A stretch of DNA of 64,000 nt from an uncultured Clostridia bacterium (lineage in GTDB: Bacteria > Bacillota > Clostridia > Christensenellales > CAG-314), in assembly GCA_947629985.1 (NCBI GenBank), contig CANRFV010000003.1:1-64000 (forward strand). Direction: 5' to 3'. Made by a program: the position numbers and the translations under genes. Below the pieces are notes generated by a model. That model was given only the letters and a program-made list of their open reading frames with translations. It did no database searches and had not been told where the DNA came from. Of the stretch, positions 4,693 to 50,393 are shown one piece after another (within the stretch, counting starts at the first letter, position 1; the number at the start of each line of letters is the position of its first letter).

Positions 4693-6252
4693 TTATTTGC
4701 GATGTCTTATCCTTTTTACCAGCACTTTGCCCGTCATTTCTTCGGGAATGGGCAGCCCCATTGTGTAGAGCATTGTGGGGGCTATATCGCACAGCGCGCC
4801 GGGAACAAGTTGCACTTTGCCGCGCAGTTGCTCGTCTACCAAAATAAACGGTACTTTGTTGGTGGTATGCGCCGTAAAGGGAGTGCCGTCGTCGGCAAGC
4901 ATTTTTTCGGCGTTGCCGTGGTCGGCGGTTACGAAAACTCTGCCGCCGTTGGCAAGCACGCTTTCGACAACGCGCCTTACACATTCGTCTACGGTAAGCA
5001 CCGCCTGCTCGGTTGCGGGGATAACGCCCGTGTGCCCTACCATATCGCAGTTGGCGTAGTTAAGGATCATCACGTCGAATTTGCCCTTTTCTATTTCGGC
5101 AATTGCGCGCGAACACACTTCTTCGGCGCTCATCTGCGGCTGCAAATCGTAAGTTGCAACCTTGGGAGAAGCGACGAGAATACGGCTTTCGTTTTCGTTG
5201 GGGGCTTCTACTCCGCCGTTGAAAAAGAAAGTTACGTGCGCGTACTTTTCCGTTTCGGCAATGCGCAATTGCGTTTTGCCCGATTTGGCAAGATATTCGC
5301 CCAAAGTATTTACGTACACTTCGGGACGATAGGCTATGTCCACATCGGTAAACTTTTCGTCGTACTGCGTCATACATACCCAATGCACTTTGCGCGATTT
5401 GCCTTTGAGATCGAATCCGTCAAAGCCGCTTTGCGTAAACGCGCGGGTCATTTCGCGGGCGCGGTCGGGACGGAAATTGAAGAAAATTACCGAGTCGCCG
5501 TTGTCTATCGTGGCAACGGGTTTACCGTCTTTTACAATTACGGTAGGCAAAACAAATTCGTCCGTAACGCCCTGTTGGTAACTGTTTTCAAGCGCGCGCA
5601 CGGCGTCGTCCGCCGTATTGTCGCTCTTGCCGAGCAACATATCGTATGCCTTTTCCACGCGATCCCAGCGGTTGTCGCGGTCCATTGCGTAATACCTGCC
5701 GCATACCGACGCTATCTCGCCGAAATGCAAACGATCCATTTCGTCCTGCAAACGCCGCGCATATCCGGCGCCGCTTGTGGGAGATACGTCGCGCCCGTCC
5801 ATATAGCAATGGACGTAAACGTTGTCCAACCCCTGCTGTTGCGCAAGTTGAATCAGCGCAAACAAGTGCGTAATGTGCGAATGTACGCCGCCGTCGGACA
5901 AAAGCCCCATAAGGTGCAATTTGCCGCCGTTTTGTTTGGCGTACTCCACTGCATCCAAAAACGCCTGATTGGAGAAAAAGTCGCCGTCGGAAATAGCCTT
6001 GGTAATACGCGTAAGTTCCTGATAAATTACTCTGCCCGCGCCTATATTGAGATGCCCGACTTCGCTGTTGCCCATTTGACCTTCGGGCAGTCCTACCGCC
6101 AAACCGCTTGCGTCCAGCGTTGTGTTGGGATAGGTGTTGCGCAAATATCTTACGTAAGGCGAGCAGTCAACGCCTATTGCGTTGCCTTTTACCTGATCGG
6201 ACAGCCCGTAGCCGTCCATTATAACCAATGCGGTTATTTGTTTGTTTGTCAT
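4693..6252 (-). CDS. gpmI: 2,3-bisphosphoglycerate-independent phosphoglycerate mutase
   Basis: Interconverts 3- and 2-phosphoglycerate in glycolysis using two metal ions and a serine nucleophile. The 519-residue length is typical. Visible landmarks are 'VIMDGYG' near the N-terminus, the catalytic serine in 'GQMGNSEVGHLNIG' (about residue 62), the metal-binding 'VTADHGNAEKM', and 'TAHTTNKVPF'. It follows tpiA and pgk on the same strand, forming a lower-glycolysis cluster. Confidence 0.97.
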   Translation of the reverse strand: MTNKQITALVIMDGYGLSDQVKGNAIGVDCSPYVRYLRNTYPNTTLDASGLAVGLPEGQMGNSEVGHLNIGAGRVIYQELTRITKAISDGDFFSNQAFLDAVEYAKQNGGKLHLMGLLSDGGVHSHITHLFALIQLAQQQGLDNVYVHCYMDGRDVSPTSGAGYARRLQDEMDRLHFGEIASVCGRYYAMDRDNRWDRVEKAYDMLLGKSDNTADDAVRALENSYQQGVTDEFVLPTVIVKDGKPVATIDNGDSVIFFNFRPDRAREMTRAFTQSGFDGFDLKGKSRKVHWVCMTQYDEKFTDVDIAYRPEVYVNTLGEYLAKSGKTQLRIAETEKYAHVTFFFNGGVEAPNENESRILVASPKVATYDLQPQMSAEEVCSRAIAEIEKGKFDVMILNYANCDMVGHTGVIPATEQAVLTVDECVRRVVESVLANGGRVFVTADHGNAEKMLADDGTPFTAHTTNKVPFILVDEQLRGKVQLVPGALCDIAPTMLYTMGLPIPEEMTGKVLVKRIRHRK

Positions 6253-6336
6253 AATTCTCCTGTTGCGCGCACGGCGCGCCGAATACTACTTGGCGTTACG
6301 TATTGAGACCGAGCCGTTTGCGCCTGCTGTTGATAA

Positions 6337-7089
6337 TTATTTGCTTGCGTGTACTATTGCGGCAAACTTGTCGGCAACCAAACTTGCGCCGCCGATAAGC
6401 CCACCGTCGATATCGCTCATTGCAAGCAAGCCCGCCGCATTTGCGTCGTTCATACTGCCGCCGTACTGAATGTACAGCGCGTCGGCGGCTTGTGCGCCGT
6501 ATTTGCGAGCGAAAACTCCGCGCACAAACGCTATTGCGTCGTTGGCTTGATCGTCGGTGGCGGTTACGCCCGTGCCGATTGCCCAGACGGGTTCGTACGC
6601 GACGATAATACGGGACAGTTCGTCGGCGGTGATATCCTTAAAGCCTTCCGTAACCTGACGAGTAAGCACTTGTTCGGTAAGCCCGTCGTTGCGTTCGGCA
6701 AGCGTTTCGCCTATGCACACGATGGGTTTGAGCCCTGCGGCAAGCGCCGCCTTGGTACGCAAAAGCACCGTTTGATCCGTCTCGCCGAAATACGTGCGGC
6801 GTTCGCTGTGCCCTATTACCACATATTCCACGCCGAGTTCCGCAAGCATTGCGGGAGATATTTCGCCCGTGTAAGCGCCCGATTCTTTCCAATGGCAGTT
6901 TTGCGCGCCGACGTGGATATTGGTGCCCTTAGTAAGCGCCAAAACCGTCTGCAAATCGGTAAAAGGCACGCACACTATCACGGTGTTGGCGGTATCTTGT
7001 ACAAGCGGAATAAGTTGCGTTATAAGTTGTTCTGCCTGCAAACGGGTTTTGTTCATCTTCCAATTGCCGGCAATTATTTTGTTCTTCAT
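6337..7089 (-). CDS. tpiA: Triosephosphate isomerase
   Basis: Interconverts dihydroxyacetone phosphate and glyceraldehyde-3-phosphate. The 250 residues carry the substrate lysine in 'GNWKMNKT', the catalytic histidine in 'VVIGHSERR', the catalytic glutamate in 'AYEPVWAIGTG', and the phosphate-binding 'QYGGSM'. The start at 7089 gives the standard N-terminus and has GGGGG upstream; the longer frame to 7164 adds unrelated residues. It lies between pgk and gpmI. Confidence 0.97.
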   Translation of the reverse strand: MKNKIIAGNWKMNKTRLQAEQLITQLIPLVQDTANTVIVCVPFTDLQTVLALTKGTNIHVGAQNCHWKESGAYTGEISPAMLAELGVEYVVIGHSERRTYFGETDQTVLLRTKAALAAGLKPIVCIGETLAERNDGLTEQVLTRQVTEGFKDITADELSRIIVAYEPVWAIGTGVTATDDQANDAIAFVRGVFARKYGAQAADALYIQYGGSMNDANAAGLLAMSDIDGGLIGGASLVADKFAAIVHASK

Positions 7090-7275
7090 TGTATTATCCC
7101 CCGATGGTTTACGCTGTTGCCCGTTTAGTTGCGGTAACGGTTTGCCGCGCTTGTCAATTTGCATGCGACGCTACGTAAAAAGCGATATGCCGCAAACAAA
7201 ATTTACCGCGCAGTAAGTTTTTTAGCAAGTTGCCGCTTTTAGCGGGCGCGCCGTGTTGCAAAAGCGAGCGCGCGA

Positions 7276-8592
7276 TTATTTGCGTTCGTTAAGGCAGGCG
7301 ATACCGGGCAACACTTTGCCTTCGAACAGTTCCAGACTTGCTCCGCCGCCCGTGCTTACGTGGGTCATTTTGTCGGCGTATCCGAGTTGAGCGACGGCAG
7401 CCGCGCTGTCTCCGCCGCCGATAATGGTTGTTGCGTTGCTTTCCGCCATCGCTTTGGCTACGGCGTTAGTGCCTGCGGCAAGAGTGGGATTTTCGAATAT
7501 TCCCATAGGTCCGTTCCATATAACCGTCTTGGCTTGGGCTATGATGTCGGCATACAACTTGCATGTTGCGGGACCGATATCCGCGCCTTCGCGATCGACG
7601 GGAATGTCCGTTACGGGCACGACCTTGGTTTCTACGGGCGCGTCGATGGGGTTGGGAAATTCCGGTATGGTAACGCAGTCGATGGGCAGATAGATCTTTT
7701 TGCCTTGTTGCTGTGCCTTGGCAAGCATATCGCGGCAGTAATCGAGTTTGTCGGCGTCCAACAAAGATTTGCCGATTTCGTAACCTTGCGCTTTGAGGAA
7801 GGTGTACGCCATTCCGCCGCCGATAATGAGCGAATCGCACTTTTCGAGCAGGTTGTTGATAACGTTGAGTTTGTCGGACACTTTTGCTCCGCCCAAAATA
7901 GCCACAAAGGGGCGCACGGGATGATCCAAAGCGTCAGCCATTACAGACAGTTCTTTTTCGATCAAAAATCCGCATACCGCCTGTTTTACAAAGCCGTATT
8001 CCACAATTGCAGCCGTGCTGGCATGCGAACGGTGAGCGGTTCCGAATGCGTCGTTTACGTAAATATCGGCAAAAGCAGCCAATTTTTTGCAAAATTCTTC
8101 GTCGCGCGCTTCTTCGCCCGCTTCGAAACGGGTGTTTTCCAGCAAAACGACTTCGCCTTGCTTGCAAGCGGCAACTTTGGCTTGCGCGTCGGCGCCCACT
8201 ACGTCGGTTGCAAAGGTTACTTTGCCGTCCAACAGTTGATTGAGACGGTCGGCAACCGGTTTGAGCGTGAATTTTTTGGCGTCGCCTTTGAGCGCTTTGG
8301 CAATCATTTCCGCCTTGGCTGCGTCGCGTTCGCTTTCGGGCAACGCTTCCAACGCCGCTTTTTCCTTTTTGTTGAGTTTGAAACCGGGCGTAAAAATGTT
8401 GTGAGGTTTGCCCAAATGAGAACACAGTATTACTTTTGCGCCGTGTTCCATCAGATATTTGATAGTGGGCAATGCGCCTTGAATACGATTTTCGTCCGTA
8501 ATAACGCCGTCTTTCATAGGTACGTTGAAGTCTACGCGTACCAGACATCTTTTTCCGTTTACGTTTACGTCTTTGATGCTGAGTTTGTTCAT
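7276..8592 (-). CDS. pgk: Phosphoglycerate kinase
   Basis: Transfers phosphate from 1,3-bisphosphoglycerate to ADP. At 438 residues it is longer than the usual 390-400, because the N-terminal domain carries an extra lysine- and alanine-rich stretch (about residues 70-105, starting '[15 protein letters not shown]'). It has 'VRVDFNVPM', 'CSHLGKP', '[11 protein letters not shown]', 'WNGPMGIFE' and the nucleotide-binding 'GGGDSAAAV'. AAGGAGTG precedes the start. It is the first gene of the pgk-tpiA-gpmI group. Confidence 0.97.
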
Positions 8593-23256: not shown

Positions 23257-23829
23257 TCAGTCTTCCGTAAAGAATTTTTTTGCGTACACTACGGCGCCCG
23301 TAAGATAATCGATATCTTCGTAGCCGCGCTTTAAGTAAAATGCGCGCGCGCCTTCCGCCTTTTGCCCGCATATTATGTACGCGCCTTCCACAAACATACC
23401 GCGCAACTTGTCTTCCAAGGTTTGCACAAGTTGACCGCCCAAACCTTGCCGTTGATATTCGGGCAAAACGTTGAGATGCAGGTGCGCCGTGTAACCTTCG
23501 CGCACGTAACGCTGAGCAACCTTGGTCTCCGCGCCGAAACGGTAATATTCGCCGCCGGAAATTTTGCGCACCAACGGCAGATAAAGTTGCTGCATTTTTT
23601 CTTCGTAATCGTCCAAATCGACGGCGCACAGTATGTAACCTACGGGTACGTCGTTGTCGTCGACAGCCACAAAACAGTAGTCCGATTGATTGTCAAGATA
23701 ATAGTCGCAATACATAGCGCACAACAACGCGCGGTTGGACGGAGTGTCCTCGTCGGCGTACTTGGACGTGGCAACGCATATATCTTGAACGTATCTGAAA
23801 TCCTTTTTGAGATAGGGTCTTACCGTCAT
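23257..23829 (-). CDS. GNAT-family N-acetyltransferase
   Basis: A 190-residue acetyltransferase with the acetyl-CoA pyrophosphate-binding segment 'LNVLPEYQRQGLGGQLVQTL' (about 116-135) and the late 'EGARAFYLKRGYEDI'. The substrate is unknown. The start at 23829 has AAGGAG upstream. It lies 6 bp ahead of mrnC and is probably the first gene of the mrnC-rlmB-sigH transcript. Confidence 0.85.
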   Translation of the reverse strand: MTVRPYLKKDFRYVQDICVATSKYADEDTPSNRALLCAMYCDYYLDNQSDYCFVAVDDNDVPVGYILCAVDLDDYEEKMQQLYLPLVRKISGGEYYRFGAETKVAQRYVREGYTAHLHLNVLPEYQRQGLGGQLVQTLEDKLRGMFVEGAYIICGQKAEGARAFYLKRGYEDIDYLTGAVVYAKKFFTED

Positions 23830-23868
23830 AACTTTTCTCCTTGTGGACATAATATGCCATTTTGTATT

Positions 23869-23908: not shown

Positions 23909-24087
23909 GCGAGTATTGTACGCTTGGCGAACAATACTCGCAGTAAGATTTTGCTGTAAGGCAAATACTTGCCTTACAGCAAAGTGTTATTTTTTCGCCT
24001 GCGGCGAAAAAGTGAGATTTTTCCGCTTTCAGCGGAAAAGTGAGATTATTCGCTAACGCGAATAGTGATATTGTTTGCTGCGCAAAC
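23909..24087 (+). repeat. Modular hairpin array, copy A
   Basis: Six different palindromes in a row, joined by a nearly constant 9-nt linker: 23909-23941 (11-bp stem), 23951-23982 (TTGCTGTAAGGCAA stem), 23992-24010 (TTTTCGCC stem), 24020-24038 (TTTCCGCT), 24048-24063 (ATTCGC) and 24073-24087 (GTTTGC). Linkers are AGTAAGATT, AGTGTTATT, AGTGAGATT twice and AGTGATATT. The third stem and the second stem match those of copy C at 49857-49916 exactly. No reading frame of note. Confidence 0.85.
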
Positions 24088-24129
24088 AGTTGCGGAACCG
24101 TTAATTGAACTATTTTTGCAGACAAAAAA

Positions 24130-24162
24130 ATTATTGCCGAAAAGTTATTGTTCGGCAATAAT
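24130..24162. repeat. Central 12-bp hairpin between the two array copies
   Basis: ATTATTGCCGAA and TTCGGCAATAAT flank a 9-nt loop. A closely related ATTGCCGAAA hairpin follows copy C at 50013-50041, so this is a conserved end part of the element. It could also act as a terminator on the plus strand. Confidence 0.75.
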
Positions 24163-24188
24163 AATTTTCAAATAAAGTCAACCTTAAC

Positions 24189-24318
24189 TTTGCCGTCAGG
24201 CAAAATAACACTTTTCCGCCAACGGCGGAAAAATAACACTCGCCGCAGGCGAATCTCACTTTTCCGTCGCAGACGGAAAAATATAACTGTTTGCGTAGCA
24301 AACACTCGGAGCGAGTGT
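24189..24318 (-). repeat. Modular hairpin array, copy B (opposite orientation)
   Basis: Palindromes at 24189-24204, 24213-24231, 24240-24252, 24261-24279, 24289-24303 and 24302-24318. The linkers read on the minus strand are AGTTATATT, AGTGAGATT, AGTGTTATT and AGTGTTATT, the same 9-mer family as copy A. Copies A and B thus face each other around the hairpin at 24130-24162. Confidence 0.8.
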
Positions 24319-24319
24319 G

Positions 24320-24399
24320 TTCACTGCAAAATAATCTGCAACAAGCGTGCCGCACCTTGTTAGGTGCGGCACGCGAAGTGAAGCCTTTTTGCAGTGAAC
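24320..24399. repeat. Nested inverted repeat, probable terminator of the pseudouridine synthase gene
   Basis: An outer 13-bp pair (GTTCACTGCAAAA / TTTTTGCAGTGAAC) encloses a perfect stem GCGTGCCGCACCT-TGTT-AGGTGCGGCACGC (about 24344-24373). It lies directly after the stop of the gene at 24415. Confidence 0.7.
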
Positions 24400-24414
24400 A
24401 CGCGAGCGATATAT

Positions 24415-25206
24415 TTAATCGAGATTATCCGCAACAACGGGGTTGGTGTACAGCGGCACGCCGTCCGTTTCGCCGTCGTCGCCGTCGGAAAAGTTTTCGA
24501 CATAACGGGCAATATCAAAATTGCTCCACGGCTGTGCGTCGGGCGGATACGCCACAAATACCATACGTTCCTTGGTTACGGGGTGGTTAAATTCCAATTT
24601 GTACGCCCACAGCGCAAGGTTGTGCCCCTTGCCCATTATGTCGCCGCCGTAGCGCACATCGCCGAACACGGGGCAGCCTATTGCGGCAAACTGTACGCGT
24701 ATCTGATGACTGCGCCCGGTACCCAATTGCACTTTTACAAGGCTTAATCGGTCTTGATACGTTTGCAGCGTTTCGTAAGTAAGTTCGGCGCGCTTGGCGT
24801 CGTGATCGCCGAAAGTGGCAACGTACACGTTGTTGGTAAGCGCGTTCTTTTTGAGATAATTTACAAGTTGCGCTTTGCGTTCCTTGGGCACGCCCGTTAC
24901 CGTTGCAAGATACTGCTTGGTAACTTCGCCGTCCGTTATTTGCTTGCACAACCGCTCTGCCGCTTTGCTGTTTTTTGCAAAGACCATTACTCCGCCCGTG
25001 GGACGGTCAAGACGGTGTACCAAGCCCAAATACACGTTGCCCGGCTTGGCGTATTTGTCCTTTATGTAATTTTTGAGCAGCGTAAGCAGGTCGAGATCGC
25101 CGCTGCTGTCCGCCTGACTGGGCAAATTGTGCGGTTTTACCACCACCAACACGCTGTTGTCCTCGTACAACACGGGGACGTCGTCCATTGTAAAAACTTT
25201 TGCCAT
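24415..25206 (-). CDS. RluA-family RNA pseudouridine synthase
   Basis: A 263-residue pseudouridine synthase without an S4 domain. It has the catalytic aspartate motif 'VHRLDRPTGGVMVFAKN' (about 63-79), an early 'NSVLVVVKPHNLPSQ', and 'GTGRSHQIRVQFAAIGCPVFGD'. The RNA target cannot be decided. AAGGAG before the start lies inside the end of the upstream methyltransferase gene, so the two are co-transcribed. The long frame to 25551 is an artefact of an open upstream frame. Confidence 0.92.
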   Translation of the reverse strand: MAKVFTMDDVPVLYEDNSVLVVVKPHNLPSQADSSGDLDLLTLLKNYIKDKYAKPGNVYLGLVHRLDRPTGGVMVFAKNSKAAERLCKQITDGEVTKQYLATVTGVPKERKAQLVNYLKKNALTNNVYVATFGDHDAKRAELTYETLQTYQDRLSLVKVQLGTGRSHQIRVQFAAIGCPVFGDVRYGGDIMGKGHNLALWAYKLEFNHPVTKERMVFVAYPPDAQPWSNFDIARYVENFSDGDDGETDGVPLYTNPVVADNLD

Positions 25207-39042: not shown

Positions 39043-39473
39043 GTTGGCAAAAAGTCGTCAAAAATGCAAAAATTCGCACATTTTCCTATAATAAAATACC
39101 GCTCAAATAAAAAATTTCCCCTAAAAAGTTATATTTTTACCGAAAAAATAATATAATATACGCCAAAATGCCGAAAATAACGAACGGCCGACCTATTGCG
39201 TTAAGCATTAAACTAAATAGTTAATAAATCAACTAAATCAAAGCAATAGTTGTTACAATTAAACTACCGCAAACTACGGACCTGCGCCGAAGTTTGCGCC
39301 CTTGCGGGGGTTGCCGGGGACATGCGACACCCCGGCGAAAGTCTAAACAATGCCGCGCGTGCGTTCACGCGCAACTCCCAAGTCCGACTGCGTCGGCGCG
39401 ACAGCGCACTGCGTGTCGATTGCGCTCGCGTTAGCGCAGCAGCAAGCAATCGACCGACGCACGAGTGGTCGGT
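39043..39473. repeat. Non-coding gap with a cluster of GC-rich hairpins
   Basis: About 430 bp without a gene. From 39313 it packs several stems: GCCGGGG/CCCCGGC (39313-39336), GCGCGTG/CACGCGC (39355-39372), CCGAC-TGC-GTCGG (about 39384-39396), and a larger one built on GTCGATTGC/GCAATCGAC (about 39415-39454). The last ones could end the V-ATPase transcript. The AT-rich part nearest dnaG may carry the dnaG promoter, which I could not pin down. Confidence 0.6.
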
Positions 39474-40100
39474 TTATTTATTTAATATATCTTTTACTTT
39501 CATCAAGCGCACCGTGGCGGAACGTTCGCTTTCGTCGAGTTTCATCTTGATAAACTTGATGGTTTCCGTAAGTTGCGGGATCATTATGTTTTCCAAGGCG
39601 TTTACGCGACGCTTGTTCTTTTCGATTTCGTCGGCAAGCATATTGCAGGTCTTTTCGGTTTCGGCAAGTTGAATGAGTTTTACCAATACCGAATCGAGAC
39701 CGCGCACCGATTCGTCCAATTGCGAATTTACGCTCAAAAAGCCGTACGGGTACAGTTGTTCGCCGTCGGAACGTTTGATGGATATTGCGGGCACTTCGAT
39801 GCCCATTACTTTGCGTTTGGAACACTGTATGGCAACGCTGCGCGAAGGCATAACAAACGCTTCCTGCACCAAACGCTCGTCTACGCTGCACTTTGCCTGT
39901 TTGAAAGCGTTCAAAGCGGCGCACAATTCGCTTTCGGTTTGCATACGCAGCCTTTTGTTTTCGCGCGCGATTTCGATAAAACGACGGATCATTTCGTCGG
40001 TTTTATCTTTAAGTAATTTGTGCCCGCGCGTAGCGGTACGCAACCGCTGCTGCAACAGTTTCAGTTCCATTCGCGTGGGATTTACGTTCAAAACTGCCAT
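39474..40100 (-). CDS. ntpD: V-type ATPase subunit D
   Basis: The central rotor shaft, a long antiparallel coiled coil of 208 residues. It has the family N-terminus 'NVNPTRMELKLLQQRLRTATRGHKLLKDKTDEM' and a C-terminal basic helix. It is the last gene of the ntp operon, 6 bp after subunit B. Confidence 0.95.
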   Translation of the reverse strand: MAVLNVNPTRMELKLLQQRLRTATRGHKLLKDKTDEMIRRFIEIARENKRLRMQTESELCAALNAFKQAKCSVDERLVQEAFVMPSRSVAIQCSKRKVMGIEVPAISIKRSDGEQLYPYGFLSVNSQLDESVRGLDSVLVKLIQLAETEKTCNMLADEIEKNKRRVNALENIMIPQLTETIKFIKMKLDESERSATVRLMKVKDILNK

Positions 40101-49817: not shown

Positions 49818-50041
49818 TGCCGTAAGGTAAATGTTTTGCCTTGCGGCAGTGAGATTTTGCTGTAAGGCAAATGTTTGCCTTACAGCAAAGTGTTATTTTT
49901 TCGCCTGCGGCGAAAAAGTGAGATTTACGCGCAAGCGCGTAAGTGATATTATTCGCTTACGCGAATAGTTGTGGCGTTGTTTAGTTGGAATAACTTTAAG
50001 CAATAAAAAATAATTGCCGAAAAATAATCTCTTTCGGCAAT
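49818..50041 (+). repeat. Modular hairpin array, copy C
   Basis: Five palindromes joined by 9-nt linkers: 49818-49847, 49857-49888 (TTGCTGTAAGGCAA stem, as in copy A with loop ATGT for ATAC), 49898-49916 (identical to copy A), 49926-49941 (TACGCGC stem, not in copy A) and 49951-49966 (ATTCGC). Linkers are AGTGAGATT, AGTGTTATT, AGTGAGATT and AGTGATATT. About 45 nt of AT-rich sequence then leads to the hairpin ATTGCCGAAA/TTTCGGCAAT (50013-50041), as in copy A. Confidence 0.85.
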
Positions 50042-50393
50042 CAAAATTTCAAATAATGTAGGAATTTGAGTGAGCGTAGCGCGCGGCGCACCACTTGTTT
50101 GTCAGCACCAAGCACGCGTAGCGTACTCGGTTCCGCTGACACATGGGTGCGCCTTTTCCCACACAAGCGAGCAAGCAACCCTTTTGCAAGCGCCGACCGC
50201 GTATAACGCAGTCGGCGCCACTTGCAGGGTGCTTGCCCTTTTCCCAATCAGTGCTTTCGCACCGATTGGGTACCCTTTGCTAAATCAAATTTTGTGCGGG
50301 GTCCCTAATGTCTTACGACGCGCACGAAGTGCAAGGTTGCAAGGCGTATGCCGCCGTCAACCAAGTCCGCACGCGTTTGGTCGGCTCACTTTA
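50042..50393. repeat. Non-coding gap with further GC-rich hairpins
   Basis: About 350 bp without a convincing gene. Stems include GCGCCGAC/GTCGGCGC (about 50188-50216) and CCAATC-GTGC/GCAC-GATTGG (about 50246-50271). The CCGACTGCG-type core also appears in hairpins near 39385 and 60811. Confidence 0.5.

Follow-up and report, generated by a model that had tools for sequence, protein, structure and literature searches.

At positions 23909-24303 of the window, as we call the whole 64,000-nucleotide stretch analysed, 12 palindromes stand in a row between two minus-strand genes, a pseudouridine synthase gene upstream (24415..25188) and a GNAT acetyltransferase gene downstream (23257..23850). Eleven of the palindromes are array hairpins and one is a 12-bp core hairpin, in agreement with the original prediction of at least eleven different palindromes with AGTG-type linkers. 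The promoter-like site of the GNAT gene (TTGACA, 17 nt, TAGCAT, 23897-23869) lies 11 bases from the element.

The array begins with an outermost left hairpin (23909..23941), whose 15-nt arms are 93% complementary. Half A (23942..24087, plus strand) contains five linkers (23942-23950, 23983-23991, 24011-24019, 24039-24047, and 24064-24072) and five hairpins (23951-23982, 23992-24010, 24020-24038, 24048-24063, and 24073-24087). Its hairpin-linker order runs from left to right, and its linkers are AGTG-type 9-mers (AGTAAGATT, AGTGTTATT, AGTGAGATT twice, and AGTGATATT). Half B (24190..24303, minus strand) is built from five hairpins (24190-24203, 24213-24231, 24241-24251, 24261-24279, and 24289-24303) and four reversed 9-mers (24204-24212, 24232-24240, 24252-24260, and 24280-24288), with the sequences AATAACACT (twice), AATCTCACT, and AATATAACT. 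Between the halves, the core (24088..24189) comprises the AGTTGCGG end of half A, the hairpin with the 12-bp stem (24130-24162) and the CCTTAACT end of half B, which reads AGTTAAGG on its own strand. The linkers of half B are reversed about this core, as expected from the earlier claim that one copy is inverted relative to the other around a 12-bp hairpin. Relative to the pseudouridine synthase gene, half B lies in sense orientation, and it is followed on the minus strand by the core hairpin, which leads into a T stretch. The core hairpin was absent from our terminator scan; its loop exceeds the length that the scan permits. When compared with 100 shuffles per strand, the window array folds far better than the shuffled sequences (z of -17.7 and -15.2).

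A second repeat (24304..24410), with perfect 15-bp inverted ends (24317-24331 and 24387-24401) and an inner 13-bp hairpin, adjoins half B, and its inverted end is 13 bases from the stop codon of the pseudouridine synthase gene. Many array copies have a similar sequence next to their B side, and this repeat is probably a separate element. The window holds one further array copy (49825..50166, plus strand), in which half A and some of the core remain and another repeat takes the place of half B. Other dispersed palindromic repeats, of the GGAATTTGAG...CTCAAATTCC type and the CAACAAGCGGCGACC type, are seen at 39199-39479 and 50167-50384; together with the arrays they form mosaics, and the intergenic repeat blocks reach about 1.2 kb. 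An empty counterpart of the window site was not found: in none of 22 relatives was the synthase gene detected within 1.5 kb of the acetyltransferase gene, and the sequence upstream of the acetyltransferase gene in these relatives never held more than one chance linker.

Copies in the genome and among relatives

The genome from which the window comes (G000; 2.37 Mb in 157 contigs) contains many further copies, as the original prediction required. A pattern of two linkers spaced 9-34 bases apart matched 57 times on the forward and 56 times on the reverse strand, 113 in all, while the backwards control gave 0. A search with the core returned 39 matches at E <= 0.001 (29 at E < 1e-8), a number that includes second matches on the opposite strand due to the dyad of the core itself. 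The 22 cores that we compared, of 30 fetched, have a median identity of 83%. Two copies on different contigs (L041 and L042) show no difference in the 135 core columns compared, and their alignment, at 91%, extends over 414 bases and takes in half B and the inner portion of half A beside the core; such near-identity implies that array units were copied fairly recently. This genome is also larger than those of its 24 genus-mates (1.2-1.7 Mb).

The orientation of neighbouring genes was judged from genes called by a simple codon model made for this analysis. Twenty-four cores have both neighbours within the sequence fetched: the neighbours are convergent for 8 and co-directional for 16, and no core has divergent neighbours. 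Counting by arrays gives 7, 16, and 1, respectively, compared with 21, 84, and 24 for all gaps longer than 100 bases. Of the 16 co-directional cases, 15 have half B turned toward the upstream gene's 3' end, and the remaining core (L100) lies outside the array clusters. Among relatives, 5 of 70 clusters lie between divergent genes compared with 69 of 289 gaps longer than 100 bases, and half B is turned toward the upstream gene in 20 cases versus 8, with polarity assigned by a rough rule.

Within the 41 genomes of the family, the two-linker pattern stands out in the window's genome (113 matches), in G005 (27) and in G008 (3, of which two fall in a single short hairpin locus); the other genomes have 0-2 matches, and so does the control. 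A scan of the order for three linkers in a row matched in 25 of 396 genomes, about 20 of which are true by eye; five matching genomes (G324, G137, G215, G240, and G366) contain simple repeats and were discarded. Among bacterial and archaeal genomes, three exact AGTGATATT linkers were found in at least 116 stretches, one of them false. The record titles of 80 of these name uncultured Clostridia, Clostridiales, Oscillospiraceae, one Ruminococcus, and one Bacillota, and many titles among the matches listed name an animal gut sample. A Planktothricoides stretch among the matches listed was rejected as a simple tandem repeat.

Plasmids and phages gave no match to window positions 23980-24310. In viral contigs a loose pattern matched at least 120 loci, and among the matches listed four have a stem of at least 4 between the linkers. 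One of these four, on a contig of the viral collection (L139), is a clear array and is also the one examined closely among the 6 matches to a strict pattern. It is a facing array at about 1400-1550, between genes that, from their translations only, resemble a fucosidase and phage head genes, and its GTGAGACAGGTCTCAC hairpin recurs in G236, G079, and G052.

Some clusters adjoin tRNA genes. Ten of 122 lie 31-39 bp from the 3' end of a facing tRNA, compared with 0.4% for random placement, a control that disregards the clusters being intergenic. As far as polarity can be judged, the side of these ten relatives (L337, L339, L343, L355, L401, L412, L415, L435, L436, and L447) nearest the tRNA 3' end is the B side.

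Stem pairing and strand asymmetry

The stems differ from unit to unit and stay complementary. In a first set of 182 distinct units from 20 genomes, 176 of them long enough for scoring, the outer four pairs are complementary in 89.6% of cases, compared with 31.3% (maximum 36.5%) when right arms are swapped between units. In a second set, for which the search pattern fixed the linkers (269 units from the matches listed, 261 scored), the values are 88.4% and 28.0% (maximum 31.9%). By eye, most of the 67 facing pairs in the second set share a common layout of seven hairpins and an outer helix, NTATTCGCC / GGCGAATAN.

Thirty-six of these facing pairs, picked for their regular layout, were aligned. 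In this alignment 95.0% of cells are paired and all eight stems change on both sides, with two-sided changes at 22 of 32 pairs (186 cells) and a covariation score of 0.443; none of 500 shuffles reached the pairing, two-sided-change, or covariation values. The number of further pair types, 44, was reached by 8 of 500 shuffles. Sliding the partners by one to three columns lowers pairing to 32-40%. The first pair of the outer helix is C-G in 15, A-U in 13, and U-A in 7 of the 36 relatives. Unpaired cells number 57 of 1136, and 39 of them fall in helix 3, for which a group of elements uses a different pairing register. The covariation and the unit-stem pairing support the earlier contention that the constraint is on the hairpins and not on their sequence, and the stems of relatives do covary, which had been set as a test. 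Only 7 G-U pairs accompany the 186 two-sided changes. So few G-U pairs beside so many two-sided changes are, in our judgement, odd for an RNA, and they suggest that the palindrome is kept as DNA.

The two strands are not equivalent. Among tri- and tetraloops on the AGTG strand, 78 of 127 in the first set are of the T..C form and none is G..A; in the second set the counts are 99 and 1 of 168. T..C loops on the AGTG strand correspond to GNA and GNNA loops on the opposite strand. GNA and GNNA loops are very stable in DNA, where cGNNAg is a stable loop motif, and GNRA loops are stable in RNA. Single mismatches in 364 units, read on the AGTG strand, are A.C in 34, G.T in 14, and other in 18 cases, a bias that leans the same way as the loops. 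In a comparison of 142, RNA energy parameters favour the AATATCACT strand (55 versus 17), and DNA parameters favour the AGTG strand (86 versus 54), so folding energy does not single out either strand.

Linkers, ends and insertion sites of sister elements

A common end, GTGATGTYCTTANCGGAG, occurs 25 times in 10 of 396 genomes (control, 0) and bounds sister elements of 323-410 bp whose ends form an inverted repeat. These terminal inverted repeats are present in the sister elements, and their sequence, GTGATGTYCTTANCGGAG, is absent from the window's genome. In each of 15 end-bounded elements the commonest 8-mer is present 2 to 7 times, compared with at most 2 or 3 in 20 block shuffles of each, and in all 15 it flips orientation exactly once, between the halves. 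In L479 the commonest 8-mer is in two copies, not above the shuffles. We distinguished six linker types, AGTGATATT, AGTGAAGTT, AGTGATGTT, ATGAATTG, a GTTATGA-like type, and GATGAAATC; the linker changes between sister elements yet matches, inverted, between the halves of each. A constant 9-nt linker, as originally described, does not hold up, since the linker varies inside the window copy and sister elements have others; the 9-nt linker is a property of one element group, not of the general build. The inverted copies of the linker word would either be recognised by an enzyme or mediate pairing between the halves.

In many sister elements the outer flanks correspond to the arms of a single host hairpin, one with an A-rich and the other with a T-rich tail. 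In 27 entries, repeats included, the ten bases before the element contain on average 5.8 A and the ten bases after it 6.1 T. The flanks pair with each other (stem of at least 7 bp with at least 3 G-C pairs) in 15 of 21 elements, which represent 19 distinct loci as two loci appear twice; with swapped flanks the mean is 2.2 and the maximum 6 in 500 swaps. In predicted folds of arm, element, and arm, the arms re-pair across the element in 18 of 19 cases. Other long-range pairs in the predicted folds have a median of 18, with 0 in three and 1 in one of the 19, and a fold via the outer helix would compete with the arm-element-arm fold. An early comparison of flanks gave a slight excess of the same-locus mean over that of other loci (22.7 versus 20.1). 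When only flank pairs with a terminal hairpin are taken (8 of 64 pairs lack it, and the set excludes pairs whose left half is B), 16 of 56 reach the 95% level of the control and 9 of 56 the 99% level. We also considered the inverted flanks as tRNA remnants, and rejected this because in most scored cases they are terminator arms instead.

Genomes with and without the element can be compared at uvrA. In G154 the element splits the terminator of this gene, and in the genus-mates G290 and G179 the same site carries a short hairpin with a T run and no element. No element is present in the 240 nt shown for G139 and G056, and the contig of G122 stops there. A consistent target duplication was not read by eye in the sister elements. 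Around 25 repeat blocks of the window's own family we found no paired flanks; the block ends may be wrong there because other repeats adjoin.

For a mobilising enzyme we considered two candidates. The RAYT/Y1 transposase was rejected, as Y1 genes are present in 4 of 20 array genomes and in 9 of 20 others, several genomes of both sets being incomplete MAGs, and 20 loci around Y1 genes contain no array units. A large serine recombinase is at most a lead. In G078 its gene (L480, 6153-7859) ends about 50 bp away from the 18-mer found at the termini of terminator-inserted elements, gene and 18-mer together occupying 6083-7859. A truncated likeness of the 18-mer and recombinase is probably present, by eye, at a contig end in G103 (L481, 1-325), where an A-rich stretch precedes the 18-mer, as at terminator insertions. 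The recombinase matches at 100% in G078 and at 31-49% in G000, G005, G098, and elsewhere in G078; it was not found at E <= 1e-60 in the other 11 of 15 genomes, and the loci around it hold no array units. G000 has 8 large serine recombinase matches at E <= 1e-60.

Nature of the array and its relation to Gut-1

Both halves of the window array match the Gut-1 RNA (Rfam RF01706), half B with 42.2 bits at 24200-24289 (minus strand) and half A with 36.5 bits at 23982-24076 (plus strand). The curated gathering cut-off is 50 bits, and a search of the whole window at that cut-off lists nothing, both halves scoring below it. Gut-1 was the only one of 4227 Rfam families listed in the array searches at E <= 0.001. 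At E <= 0.01, 18 chosen loci of the same genome gave 20 Gut-1 matches in 14 of the 18 loci, beside one weak microRNA match, and 8 chosen loci of relatives gave 14 matches in all 8. Two arrays exceed the cut-off, one in the window's genome (L057, 52.4 bits) and one in a relative (L425, 51.2 bits). Hairpins, linker type, and loops are the same as in Gut-1. However, the Rfam model, typed as an sRNA, spans 77 positions inside one half, whereas the arrays are two-halved dispersed DNA elements; Gut-1 as filed therefore appears to be a slice of a larger two-sided structure, the dispersed hairpin arrays. The statement that no named repeat class has this build stands insofar as word searches of the open-licence literature, in the portions of text they returned, met none, but a slice of each half had been named as an RNA. 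As far as these searches show, the element class is on record only as this partial RNA motif.

In our view the array is likely to be one copy of a MITE-like mobile DNA element that has no genes and is non-autonomous; this is one of the possibilities originally raised and, we find, the best supported. The window copy would be assigned to this class by its architecture, linkers, Gut-1 match, and dispersal rather than by its ends. Mobility has good support in the sister elements, and the window's own family is likely to be mobile as well; how the elements move, as outlined below, and any host benefit, we infer. Like MITEs (PMC10969869), the copies are dispersed, short, gene-less, and intergenic, and the sister elements also have inverted ends. 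Unlike MITEs, the array has a body of successive unrelated hairpins between which an inverted linker is iterated, and the sister elements sit inside terminators. A parent transposon for the arrays was not found; the serine recombinase gene near the 18-mer in G078 is without arrays.

The element body would consist of two facing rows of hairpins, spaced by an iterated linker. What a mobilising enzyme supplied in trans recognises may be the combination of repeated inverted linkers and hairpins, most likely while these are folded or extruded as cruciforms. Terminator hairpins would tolerate such an element at their tip because it folds on itself and both arms can pair again. Tn7- or Mu-like ends contain iterated transposase sites, and the arrays resemble them in having several copies of one site per half, inverted between the halves; in the arrays the iterated sites are internal to the element and are not its demonstrated ends.

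Other explanations have to be weighed against a mobile DNA element. The hairpins could act in the transcript, as an sRNA or 3' UTR element, for instance a protein-binding platform or a stabiliser ahead of the terminator. The strong covariation in the 36 relatives fits such a role, and so does the bias of half B toward the upstream gene, both in the window's genome and among relatives; in the window itself half B has the sense orientation of the pseudouridine synthase gene and runs into the core hairpin and T run. Gut-1, moreover, is filed as an sRNA, and the paper that introduced it lists it among candidate non-coding RNAs, with an occurrence restricted to human gut sequences (PMC2864571). Against this stand the scarcity of G-U pairs relative to two-sided changes, the many end-bounded relatives inside terminators, the differing linkers of sister elements, the restriction of Gut-1 to part of either half, and the dispersal of units that were in part recently copied, and we judge a structured RNA unlikely. 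The orientation bias of half B toward transcription could also mean function. We give still less weight to a repeat of the REP/BIME kind, either propagated by a Y1 transposase of the RAYT type or maintained as a platform for DNA-protein contacts (gyrase or a nucleoid protein), although REP/BIME sequences, like the arrays, are short extragenic palindromes in facing orientation, and the paucity of copies between divergent genes (0 of 24 cores in the window's genome) points the same way. In REP elements the stem is conserved, in contrast to the linker; the arrays show the reverse, with variable stems and conserved linkers. They have neither a conserved palindrome sequence nor a linked Y1 transposase, which is not enriched in array genomes, and this weakens the REP/BIME explanation.

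Least probable of all, in our estimate, is that complementarity is kept by mutation alone, with template switching during replication correcting imperfect palindromes while the arrays drift as neutral debris. Such correction would account for perfect stems of changing sequence and for the near absence of G-U intermediates, but not for the layout, slot order, and matching linkers kept across many genomes, nor for loops that differ by strand. Among known repeats, pneumococcal BOX, RUP, and SPRITE are, like the arrays, interspersed, strongly structured, partly modular, nested, and often near gene 3' ends (PMC3049150). BOX varies the copy number of boxB, while each array module has a different stem and the linker alone repeats, and SPRITE is itself terminator-like, while sister elements of the array sit inside a terminator (PMC3049150).

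Beyond the assignment to MITE-like mobile DNA, we tentatively suggest, as a possibility that we hold to be less probable than its opposite, that the arrays represent a distinct class of mobile DNA. Such elements would combine an exchangeable address word, inverted and element-specific, with hairpins of free sequence, and a recombinase that reads structure would act on the folded AATATCACT strand and insert it at hairpin tips, chiefly those of terminators. This strand was chosen as the putative substrate by its GNA/GNNA loops and by the mismatch bias. If this is true, Rfam Gut-1 would be mobile DNA filed in the wrong place. The analysis offers this orphan RNA family a concrete, different, and readily checkable identity, and it documents a repeat that is widespread in uncultured Clostridia, with relatives located in transcription terminators. 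As its build is kept while stems and linker change, it may provide a natural test of whether the enzyme reads the fold of the DNA or its sequence.
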